From: Bdellovibrionales bacterium
Lineage (GTDB): Bacteria > Bdellovibrionota > Bdellovibrionia > Bdellovibrionales > UBA1609
Direction of reading: 5' to 3'
NCBI GenBank assembly: GCA_013216195.1
Contig: JABSOQ010000001.1
Location: forward strand, 1 to 43,613
Length of the DNA: 43,613 nucleotides
Numbering within the stretch: the first letter of the stretch is position 1; each line of letters begins with the position of its first letter. This document shows positions 36,887 to 43,296 of this stretch, piece by piece. Under the pieces are notes generated by a model. The model searched no databases. It was not told where the DNA came from and worked only from the letters and a program-made list of their open reading frames with translations. Made by a program: the position numbers and the translations under genes.

Positions 36887-36956
36887 TTTGAAGATTTGAA
36901 GATTTGAAGATTTGAAGATTTGAAGATTTGAAGATTTGAAGATTTGAAGATTTGAA
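36887..36956. repeat. Octamer tandem array (TTTGAAGA) x8
   Basis: Eight perfect 8-bp units (36887-36950) plus a partial TTTGAA fill most of the 113-base gap between two convergent genes. The array ends in the near-palindrome GAAGATT TG AATCTTC. Reading the array on the minus strand gives a spurious SSNLQIFK peptide repeat, which is not a gene. Confidence 0.95.
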
Positions 36957-39682: not shown

Positions 39683-40399
39683 GTGGAGTTTCCAAAGCAA
39701 CTAAAGAGCCTGGTGCTTTGCCCGCTTAAACCTGAGCTGAAGTCTCTTTTAGCCGGGCTCACTGAAGCCGGAGTCAAAATCTCAAGCCCTCAAGCCGGGC
39801 TTCATATCGCCGAAGACCTCAAAACAGGCCTTGCCCTCTGCGGCCATAGCAAGGCCCGTTTTGCAGCAAATGCAAGCCGACTTCTTACTCAAAATTCGCA
39901 ATTTGAAAACCTATTTTGCTGCGGAACAAGTGGTAGCATTAATGAAGTAGCCAAACCTCTTGATGTGGTGGTTGGCAAGGTTAGTGTTGAGCACGACTTT
40001 CACTCAATGTTTATAAAAGTTGGTAAGCTCCCTCACTATGAGTCTTCTACACTCGAGTTGCTCAAAGACCTTTCATTTTTAGAAAATGATTCTTACCAAA
40101 CCCACGTCGCAGGTATTGCGAGTGGCAATGAAGATATTGTGACTCGCGATAGGGCCCTTGAAATCGCCCGCAACACACAATGCATTGCTGTGGCCTGGGA
40201 GGGCGCAGGTGGCGCAGTGGCAGCTGAAGTAAACGGGGTTAACTATTTAGAAATACGATGTATTAGCGATGTCTGTGATGAAAATGTCGAGTCTGAATTC
40301 ATGCAGAACCTGCCCCAGGGCATGAAAAACTGCTCAAAAACTCTATTGAAAGTTTTGCAACAACTTCAACATCAACATCAACATCAACAAGTCTTCTGA
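39683..40399 (+). CDS. Phosphorylase-superfamily nucleosidase (MTA/SAH nucleosidase-like)
   Basis: 238 residues from GTG. The fold features are CCGTSGSINE followed by DVVVGKV, then AWEGAGGAVAAEV (Glu of the MEGA motif) and EIRCISDVCDE (Asp acid). These match 5'-methylthioadenosine/S-adenosylhomocysteine nucleosidases and futalosine hydrolases. The overall identity seems low, so the exact nucleoside is uncertain. The C-terminus runs into an in-frame CAACAT hexamer repeat, giving a Gln-His tail. Confidence 0.75.
   Translation: MEFPKQLKSLVLCPLKPELKSLLAGLTEAGVKISSPQAGLHIAEDLKTGLALCGHSKARFAANASRLLTQNSQFENLFCCGTSGSINEVAKPLDVVVGKVSVEHDFHSMFIKVGKLPHYESSTLELLKDLSFLENDSYQTHVAGIASGNEDIVTRDRALEIARNTQCIAVAWEGAGGAVAAEVNGVNYLEIRCISDVCDENVESEFMQNLPQGMKNCSKTLLKVLQQLQHQHQHQQVF
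40367..40390. repeat. CAACAT hexamer repeat in the nucleosidase C-terminus
   Basis: Three perfect CAACAT units and one CAACAA give a QHQHQHQQ tail just before the stop. The unit is a multiple of three, so length changes would not shift the frame. Confidence 0.9.
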
Positions 40400-40462: not shown

Positions 40463-40990
40463 ATGAAGCTTAATCATCTCTTACTGCAAATTTTGATAGC
40501 CTTGGTGGCCACAATTTCATTTGCGAACCATGCTCTAGCAGAGGGAGCTCAAGGTGAGTTTCCCCCCCTAGGTGATGGCAGCTTCATGTATGAAGGCCAG
40601 CTCTACTATGCCGATGCTTGGCTCGGTGAAGACCTCGGCCTATGCTGGCAAACAATTCTTGAGACTCAGCCCTGGATCTCAAAAGATCAAATTGCCTGCA
40701 TAGAAGCAGGTGATGGCTTTGCCCTGGCCTACGTAGCCCTATGTGCAGCTGACCCCAATAAGATTACAGATGATTTCTCTGCTTATGTTGAGTACACCCG
40801 CGAATCCATTCGAATTTCTGAAGCAATGGGCACCGCCCAAACCGAAAAGGACTGGGCCACTCACTCTCGGCTGTCGGTCGAATTTGAGAGACTCGAGCAG
40901 CAGTGGAGACTCAGCTACTCAAGGCAAGTCGTTTACAGACCGCTTAGCTGGTGGAGTAGTCGCTCAATCAGTAGCGAGTGTGCTAACTAG
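40463..40990 (+). CDS. Small secreted hypothetical protein
   Basis: 175 residues, unrecognised. A signal peptide ends about residue 26 (NHALA). Four Cys in the mature part (LCWQT, IACIEAG, ALCAAD, SECAN) could form two disulfides. The stop lies 30 bases before the first octamer array. Confidence 0.6.
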   Translation: MKLNHLLLQILIALVATISFANHALAEGAQGEFPPLGDGSFMYEGQLYYADAWLGEDLGLCWQTILETQPWISKDQIACIEAGDGFALAYVALCAADPNKITDDFSAYVEYTRESIRISEAMGTAQTEKDWATHSRLSVEFERLEQQWRLSYSRQVVYRPLSWWSSRSISSECAN

Positions 40991-41020
40991 CAGCTGGCTC
41001 AGGTTGCATCAACTGCTTCA

Positions 41021-41083
41021 TAAGTATCTAAGTATCTAAGTATCTAAGTATCTAAGTATCTAAGTATCTAAGTATCTAATGTC
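41021..41083. repeat. Octamer array (TAAGTATC) x7, plus orientation
   Basis: Seven perfect 8-bp units (41021-41076) then a degraded unit TAATGTC. It is the exact reverse complement of the array at 41203-41278, so the two form long inverted arms around about 120 bases. TAA occurs once per unit, so every frame is stopped within about three units. Confidence 0.97.
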
Positions 41084-41193
41084 TAAGGCCGCTTAATATC
41101 GAGCTGACCTACACAGAATTTGAGGGGAGTCATAGCGATCTGTCAAAAAGACGACCCGAAATGTTAGAGTGGCTAGACAAGCAGTTTTCATAA
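41080..41193 (+). pseudogene. Inverted 3' fragment of the esterase gene, carrying its C-terminus and stop
   Basis: On the plus strand, 41083-41190 reads LRPLNIELTYTE, then FEGSHSDLSKRRPEMLEWL and DKQFS, with TAA at 41191-41193. This is what an esterase C-terminus should look like: a beta strand, then a Gly-Ser-His with the catalytic His, then a helix. The minus-strand esterase ends abruptly at RHL inside the opposite array. Both parts share TCTAAG at the break and fuse in frame as RHL-RPLNIEL. The fragment has no start codon or ribosome-binding site of its own and is bounded by inverted octamer arrays. I infer it is the displaced and flipped end of the neighbouring gene. Confidence 0.85.
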
Positions 41194-41202
41194 AACCAAG
41201 CT

Positions 41203-41278
41203 AGATACTTAGATACTTAGATACTTAGATACTTAGATACTTAGATACTTAGATACTTAGATACTTAGATACTTAGAT
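41203..41278. repeat. Octamer array (AGATACTT) x9, opposite orientation
   Basis: Nine perfect 8-bp units (41203-41274) plus a partial AGAT. It encodes the last codons (L-S-I) and the stop of the minus-strand esterase. Same unit as the array at 41021, inverted. Junction sequence on the esterase sense strand: CGCCATCTAAG then TATCTAAG repeats. Confidence 0.97.
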
Positions 41279-42191
41279 GGCGAATTTGTCTTCCGCCAAA
41301 CTGCAAATTGTACTGATCAAACAGACCGACATCTACATACACAGAAGCAAGCTTTTCGACTTTGTCTCGGCGCTCATGCAAAAACACAACAGGGTCTTGC
41401 TGCTTCAGTTTTTGCCATCGCTCCTCGATTCGCACACCGGTGTCGAGATCAACAGGAAACTCGAAGCCGTCTTTGTTGTCTGCGGGCAGGTAGCATTTGC
41501 ACATCGCAATCGCATTTAGCACCGAAAAGCCTGATCGAGAATTCAACAAGCGCCCCTTTTCAAGAGACTTAATCACCTCTTGCAAACCACCCATTTTGTG
41601 AATGACTGGCAAAGCTTTGTAGATATCTGGTAACAAGCTCGCCTCAAAAAAGCTATCAGGCGCAATAGCAGCAACTCTTCCAAAGACATTTGGATACCTT
41701 GAGCCCAAGTGCAAAGCCCCATAGCCACCACTGCTACCACCAACGACGGCCCAGTTCTCTGCTCTGTCGCTCACTTCAACGAAGTCTTTCACGGTCGCAA
41801 CCATGTCACACGCAATGTAGTCTTCGTACTTACCAACAGAGCTCGAGTTTATAAACTGTGAGCCACCCCACTTAGTCCAAGCATCGACAAAGACGTAAAC
41901 CGCCAAGGGCGCTTTACCTCTCGACGCCAGGTCGTCGATATCTTGTGGATAATTCTGTTCAAAACCCTTGTCATTGAACGCCTTGGTGCCATTGCCAGCA
42001 AACCCAGACAGCACAAACACTACCGGCCAGCCACCTTTTGGGGTGTCACCTTTTGGAATGAGTATTGGGCTCTTGCGCAAGTGAGTGTCACCAAGGGGAT
42101 TGCCTTTGAGAGACTCAGAATCAACATGCAAGGTGGCTATGTTGAAACTCTTGAAGTCAAAAACATCGTAATAGGGCTTAATTTCAGACAT
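41265..42191 (-). CDS. Esterase-like alpha/beta hydrolase, truncated at a repeat array
   Basis: 308 residues. Alpha/beta-hydrolase esterase features: VVFVLSGFAGNG (oxyanion region), the nucleophile elbow GGSSGGYGALH (Ser about 154) and DVGLFDQYNLQFG, where the acid residue normally lies. The sequence then stops at RHLSI, where the last residues and stop codon come from the octamer array. The expected C-terminal His segment is absent; it is found inverted at 41083-41193. Restored, the protein would be about 341 residues with His about 322. As it stands, the product lacks a triad member and is probably inactive. The resemblance to Enterochelin-esterase/esterase-D-type enzymes is by fold and motif only. 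Confidence 0.8.
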   Translation of the reverse strand: MSEIKPYYDVFDFKSFNIATLHVDSESLKGNPLGDTHLRKSPILIPKGDTPKGGWPVVFVLSGFAGNGTKAFNDKGFEQNYPQDIDDLASRGKAPLAVYVFVDAWTKWGGSQFINSSSVGKYEDYIACDMVATVKDFVEVSDRAENWAVVGGSSGGYGALHLGSRYPNVFGRVAAIAPDSFFEASLLPDIYKALPVIHKMGGLQEVIKSLEKGRLLNSRSGFSVLNAIAMCKCYLPADNKDGFEFPVDLDTGVRIEERWQKLKQQDPVVFLHERRDKVEKLASVYVDVGLFDQYNLQFGGRQIRHLSI

Positions 42192-42288: not shown

Positions 42289-43296
42289 TCAGTCGACCTT
42301 ACGCAGTGGCGTGACATTCTCTTCAACGGTTTGCTCACCTGCTTGCTCAGGCTCGGCCTCAGCTGTGAAATCGCTAAACTCAAACCGATTGCGACCATTG
42401 GCCTTGGCAGTATAAAGGGCTTTGTCTGCATGGCGAACCAGAGCCCGAGCATCAAGATCATGCCTCTTTGGGTTCACAATTGCGAAACCAAGGCTGGCTG
42501 TGAGCTCCATACTGTGATCATCGCTTTCAAATTGATAGCCTTCAATTCTCTCGCGAAGTCGACCAGCAAAGATTTTCGCCCCCTCCAGATTGATCTCTGT
42601 AAGAACGACCAAGAATTCATCTCCACCGTAGCGGGCAGCAAAGTCGACTTTACGAATATTCTCTCGAATGATCGAGCCGACCTCTGACAACACAAAACTG
42701 CCAAACAAATGATCGTGATTATCATTCACTTTTTTGAAGTGATCCATATCCATCATGAGAACACAGACTGATCGATCATACCTTCTGGCGCGGTCCAATT
42801 CGAAATCGAGCTTCTTGTAAAGCGAGCGCATATTGAACAAACCTGTTAGATCATCGATATCTACAAGCTCTTTCAGCTTCGAATTCGCAGCCTTCAATTT
42901 GTCGTTAAGGTCTTTGATTCTAAGCTGACTTCTGACTCTTGCAAGCAGCTCAAGCACATCAAATGGCTTGCGTATATAGTCGTCTGCGCCCGAATCGAGA
43001 CCGCGAATTACAGCCTCGGGGCTCGACATCCCACTGACAAAAAGGCAACTCACATACTCATCTCGCTCACGCAATCGGCGCAGGGTTTCGATGCCATTTA
43101 GGCCAGGCATATTCACATCTAACAAGACGAGGTGGGGCCTCCAGTCGTTCATTTCTTTTAGGCCCTCATCACCTGATGTAGCCGTTTTGACCTTGTAGCC
43201 CTGATGAGTTAAGGCGGCCGTTACAAGCTTCAGCGTCTCATCGTCATCATCAACGACCAGCAACCTTCTTCTGGAGTTTTCGAACTTAGAATCCAT
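42289..43296 (-). CDS. Response regulator with GGDEF domain (diguanylate cyclase, PleD-like)
   Basis: 335 residues. The receiver domain has VVDDDDE, phospho-acceptor Asp about residue 60 (VLLDVNMPG), and Lys in DDYIRKPF. A coiled linker (about 128-150) follows, then the GGDEF domain with DDLTGLFNMRSL, active-site RYGGDEF (about 220-226), and an inhibitory RxxD site (RKVD) five residues before. Both catalytic and product-inhibition motifs are intact, so it should make cyclic di-GMP on phosphorylation. No partner histidine kinase is adjacent. The C-terminal ~25 residues are an acidic tail. Confidence 0.94.
   Translation of the reverse strand: MDSKFENSRRRLLVVDDDDETLKLVTAALTHQGYKVKTATSGDEGLKEMNDWRPHLVLLDVNMPGLNGIETLRRLRERDEYVSCLFVSGMSSPEAVIRGLDSGADDYIRKPFDVLELLARVRSQLRIKDLNDKLKAANSKLKELVDIDDLTGLFNMRSLYKKLDFELDRARRYDRSVCVLMMDMDHFKKVNDNHDHLFGSFVLSEVGSIIRENIRKVDFAARYGGDEFLVVLTEINLEGAKIFAGRLRERIEGYQFESDDHSMELTASLGFAIVNPKRHDLDARALVRHADKALYTAKANGRNRFEFSDFTAEAEPEQAGEQTVEENVTPLRKVD

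Follow-up and report, generated by a model that had tools for sequence, protein, structure and literature searches.

An inversion flanked by opposed octamer arrays has displaced the 3' end of an esterase gene in a Bdellovibrionales bacterium

Intragenic invertons have reportedly been described by Chanin et al. (Nature, 2024; cited in PMC11868660). Small inversions are also known as products of DNA copying. Template switching at inverted repeats in yeast results in inversion of the spacer together with copying of a repeat arm (PMC8604942), and the microinversions that distinguish human and chimpanzee were all flanked by inverted repeats (PMC8755829). The spacer inversions documented in these systems were 2–5 bp and 17–33 bp long (PMC8604942, PMC8755829). 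Opposed tandem arrays occur in Xanthomonas, in which arrays of the GGGAATC heptamer are dispersed at ~185 sites, most of them intergenic (PMC4692102). In the open-access literature, no description was found of a locus-specific array that had become two opposed copies bracketing an inverted gene end, and no paper was found on tandem repeats associated with inversions in Bdellovibrio.

The locus analysed here lies in a 43,613-nt stretch (the window) of the draft genome of an uncultured Bdellovibrionales bacterium. The locus clearly exemplifies a type of small DNA inversion that is already known, with the peculiarity that a tandem array supplies the flanking repeats (Table 1). Relative to the ancestral gene, the segment between two opposed arrays was inverted in place, and inverted repeats lay at its boundaries. 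The locus resembles template-switch microinversions in the short in-place inversion, the inverted-repeat boundaries, the similarity at the breakpoint and, possibly, an arm copied across (PMC8604942, PMC8755829). It differs from them in being 122 bp long, in occurring in a bacterium, in the destruction of a gene and in its arm, which is a tandem octamer array beside an 8-bp similarity.

Table 1. Features of the inverted locus and its neighborhood, with positions in the window.
Feature	Position	Strand	Description
Phosphorylase-family gene	39683–40399	+	Conserved; with the 175-aa ORF bounds the convergent gap
175-aa ORF	40463–40990	+	Orphan with an apparent signal peptide; convergent to the esterase
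Outer array	41021–41079	+	7.4 perfect units of TAAGTATC; inverted relative to 41202–41278
Flipped segment	41080–41201	+	Codons 306–342 (CLRPLNIELTYTEFEGSHSDLSKRRPEMLEWLDKQFS) with His323; stop TAA at 41191–41193; 8 bp of 3' flank
Breakpoint octamer, gene-derived	41080–41087	+	TGTCTAAG; 7/8 identical to the array unit TATCTAAG
Gene-side array	41202–41278	-	9.6 perfect units; CTAAGTAT on the minus strand, TAGATACT on the plus strand
Esterase codons 1–305	41277–42191	-	PF00756; Ser154 (GGSSGG) and Asp292
Response regulator-GGDEF gene	42289–43296	-	Upstream neighbor of the esterase; marks conserved synteny in genomes of the same genus and family

The minus-strand ORF at 42191–41265 encoded a truncated protein of 308 aa with a Pfam match to PF00756 (E = 1.1e-13). 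The protein was normal through codon 305 (..GGRQIRH), after which the frame ran into the octamer array and a stop, giving the C-terminus RHLSI. The arrays, their orientations, the segment between them and this shortened esterase were all found where the initial annotation had placed them. Serine esterases of the PF00756 type (alpha/beta hydrolases) carry Ser, Asp and His in one chain, and the truncated protein lacked this arrangement: Ser154 and Asp292 remained in the minus-strand part, with the catalytic His323 present only in the flipped piece. The esterase gene is therefore broken by a microinversion and its catalytic His is lost from the reading frame. Gene callers would report the product as a normal-looking 308-aa esterase without the catalytic His.

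The peptide encoded on the plus strand at 41080–41190 was identified by profile similarity as the esterase C-terminus. It matched an HMM of the C-termini of 28 relatives with E = 3.1e-15, and the runner-up among 73,401 six-frame segments in the searched part of the genome reached E = 0.45. The HMM was non-circular, as the 28 relatives came from a search of related genomes and the window sequence was left out. This result bore out the initial claim that the 3' end of the gene had been inverted. A separate 95% match of the flipped piece was discarded as a circular self-match, the query having contained that piece. The flipped piece corresponds to the last 37 codons of the esterase, now on the opposite strand.

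The position of the join had to be revised. Fusion at the shared TCTAAG, as first proposed, gave 341 residues and required a one-residue gap relative to all 28 relatives, whereas joining at CAT/TGT resulted in a protein of 342 aa that aligned to 28/28 relatives without a gap across the join. The C-terminal peptide begins at TGT (41080) and the breakpoint in the gene lies between codons CAT and TGT. The interior between the arrays, initially given as 120 bases, was 122 bp long (41080–41201), with the edge octamer TGTCTAAG belonging to the gene piece. The nearest solved structure by sequence was esterase 8z91 (PDB), which aligned through the His323 region.

An alignment query against genome contigs revealed 40 relatives, nearly all from Bdellovibrionales and with no sister species among them; the nearest were ~55% identical. 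The joined protein used as a single query against the genome contigs gave no match. In genome G002, from the same genus, and in the family members G034, G027, G023 and G010, the orthologue beside the response regulator-GGDEF gene was uninterrupted and array-free, a comparison that the initial annotation had proposed. Since the orthologues are contiguous in these syntenic relatives, the inversion represents a derived, lineage-specific change. For the 175-aa ORF convergent to the esterase, neither a relative among 58 related genomes nor a match in Pfam or NCBIfam was found. In another same-genus genome, G001, the match of the orthologue stopped at residue 309 and the contig ended 94 bp later (L016, G001:C385:7583-7676); a search of the rest of that genome, which is 61% complete, did not recover the missing C-terminus. 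This divergence was treated as a contig-end effect; it may reflect a chimera at the end of the contig or a second case of a broken gene end.

The two arrays formed 59-bp perfect inverted arms around the flipped segment. At the gene side, the last AT of the array (41277–41278) is shared with codon CAT, a 2-bp microhomology, and overall the exact overlap at the junctions between array and unique sequence was 0–2 bp, besides the nearby 6-bp TCTAAG similarity. The registers of the outer and gene-side arrays differ by 4 bp. A search of the whole 4.1-Mb genome with a 24-base piece of the array matched these two arrays only, so the unit occurred at one locus and did not belong to a dispersed family. 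No match to Rfam was found at the window or the locus.

The presence of two close, opposed arrays of one short unit is shared with the GGGAATC pairs of Xanthomonas, in which one heptamer forms ~70–75 closely spaced, inverted array pairs (PMC4692102). This raises the option that each array originated or was inserted independently on its own side of the segment, as from a mobile repeat element. Such an origin is considered extremely improbable: in contrast to Xanthomonas, the unit here occurs at a single locus, where the two arrays enclose an inverted gene end, array units in the surveyed 63% of this genome are locus-specific except for one heptamer on two contigs, and the inversion itself would be left unexplained.

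The wider distribution of arrays was surveyed as perfect tandem arrays with 4–20-bp units in 2.57 Mb (63%) of the 4.1-Mb genome. A total of 34 perfect short arrays was found, mostly of 7- and 8-mers, with the long ones spanning 38–82 bp, and two Markov-1 random genomes of the surveyed size contained none of any unit. Half of the intergenic arrays (13/26) were located in convergent gaps, which made up 12.3% of intergenic bp (p = 3e-6 on a crude ORF-based gene map); without the present locus, the proportion was 11/24 (p = 5e-5). Divergent gaps contained almost no arrays. Inside genes, only two short hexamer runs were detected and no long 7- or 8-mer array was present in the 2.57 Mb. None of the 34 arrays formed another close same-unit pair, and the search for further gene ends between inverted same-unit arrays, suggested at the outset, yielded none in this 63% of the genome. 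Loci taken from the relatives (355 kb) were nearly array-free.

The genome was thus rich in perfect arrays of 7- and 8-bp units, generally each with a unit of its own. One further example was located in the window at 36887–36956, and ~30 others were scattered over the 2.57 Mb. Array length was apparently capped near 82 bp in this genome. An AATTAGC-class heptamer formed 11-copy arrays at two sites (G000:C46:12927-13005 and G000:C112:22907-22983), possibly a chance coincidence. At L086:5038-5166, two unlike octamer arrays directly abutted each other (AACAGAAG x6.8 and AGAGGAAT x9.8).

Considering these data, it is probable that one array originated downstream of the esterase, in the gap between the convergent genes, and that a single template-switch microinversion followed, turning the gene into a pseudogene. 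The esterase is convergent with the two plus-strand genes on its 3' side, therefore the gap behind its stop codon would be the usual place for an array in this genome. A single octamer array would have arisen there, between the esterase and the convergent gene. A replication template switch, or the repair of a break using microhomology, would then have paired the array (CTTAGATA) with its inverted match in the gene, TGTCTAAG. The array and the gene end would have been copied backwards into the gene, followed by a jump back into the array, so that the gene would now be followed by the inverted array, its own inverted 3' end and then the array. One break would lie inside the array and the other between codons CAT and TGT, and the array would have been copied or moved into the gene by the inversion. 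Neither an invertase nor a switch function would be required. The results support template switching or recombination, which had been suggested initially, as the likely cause.

The breakpoint octamer is consistent with this copying from the gap. The chance of TGTCTAAG lying beside the breakpoint was 0.0003 in its exact phase; it rose to 0.2% when all phases on that side were allowed and to 1% when either side and either orientation were included as well. The orientation of TGTCTAAG was the one that would have formed an inverted repeat with an array behind the gene. The summed length of the two arrays (77 + 59 = 136 bp) exceeded the maximum of 82 bp observed for any one array in the survey; together with the register offset, this length is explained more easily by copying, through two polymerase template switches or microhomology-mediated repair synthesis, than by a clean cut and paste, although the arrays may have grown after the inversion. 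A further point against the copying model is that the documented spacer inversions were far shorter than 122 bp.

The birth of the array inside the gene, as initially suggested, was also considered. The array would have grown from TGTCTAAG and killed the gene, and a later inversion would have had one break within the array and the other at a TA located 8 bp past the stop. Like the copying model, this sequence of events accounts for the 7/8 match of TGTCTAAG beside the array, and a single inversion with the TA shared at both breaks explains the junctions TATC-TA-GCTTGG and CTTA-TGAAG with the register perfect, a better fit to the register than under the copying model. However, it needs the loss of 2–3 bases at the N edge, deletion of a G from the last unit and a G to A change in every other unit, and it has no parallel among the long arrays surveyed. 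Since the long 7–8-mer arrays in the surveyed part of this genome avoid genes and favor the gaps between them, above all convergent gaps, birth within the gene is regarded as a somewhat unlikely alternative to birth behind it.

The possibility of an assembly or library artefact, raised in the initial annotation, was evaluated in two forms: the gene may in reality be intact and array-free, or the 122-bp segment may have been misoriented between real inverted arrays by a short-read assembler. The assembly is a draft of 296 contigs with some N runs, and the array lengths of 59 and 77 bp are comparable to those of assembly k-mers. Amplification chimeras are often inverted. On the other hand, the array/unique junctions would have to exist in reads, and with an overlap of 0–2 bp they are hard to produce in de Bruijn graphs at ordinary values of k, which makes the caveat weaker than originally stated. 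An array-free gene would read CAT-TGTCTAAGG across the join, but the ancestral join CCATTGTCTAAGGCC was absent from the assembly with up to one mismatch allowed. Arrays showed no enrichment at contig ends, and misorientation would still require two real inverted arrays, one of them within the gene. An artefact is thus judged quite unlikely.

The perfect 59-bp inverted repeats with a spacer of ~130 bp form the pattern sought by inverton finders, and the locus shares with intragenic invertons the inverted repeats around a segment within a gene and the changed end of the reading frame. A functional phase-variable inverton that alters the esterase C-terminus by flips between the arrays would also agree with the very stable hairpin predicted for the RNA (-119.8 kcal/mol, z = -14.6). 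It is nevertheless very improbable. Unlike those of intragenic invertons, the repeats are here short-unit tandem arrays and the frame is broken in both orientations: with units of 8 bp, each of the three frames of an array contains a TAA, therefore either orientation runs codon 305 into the array stop and neither yields an intact or usefully altered esterase. No recombinase was present among the neighbors named by Pfam. The locus also resembles short tandem repeat phase variation in having 7–8-bp units, not multiples of three, in an ORF, but no change in copy number could restore the frame, with a TAA in every frame and the gene end on the other strand. Flipping between the arrays can recur, yet an array remains in the gene, so that, as the initial annotation had recognized, flipping alone cannot restore the esterase. 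This argues for a pseudogenising event and not a designed switch.

A more general interpretation, which we regard as unlikely, is that an inversion breakpoint within a short tandem array creates a new invertible element with long perfect inverted repeats, the segment of which may keep flipping in the population. If true, array birth would be a route to the origin of bacterial invertons. The locus provides a legible single case of short tandem arrays seeding structural change in a bacterium, with the ancestral frame, the breakpoint and the array unit all still readable. It suggests that array-bearing gaps behind genes expose gene ends to inversion and that long inverted repeats can be formed in one step.

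The hairpin was predicted for the transcript over positions 41015–41290 of the window and could possibly affect the termination or stability of both convergent transcripts.
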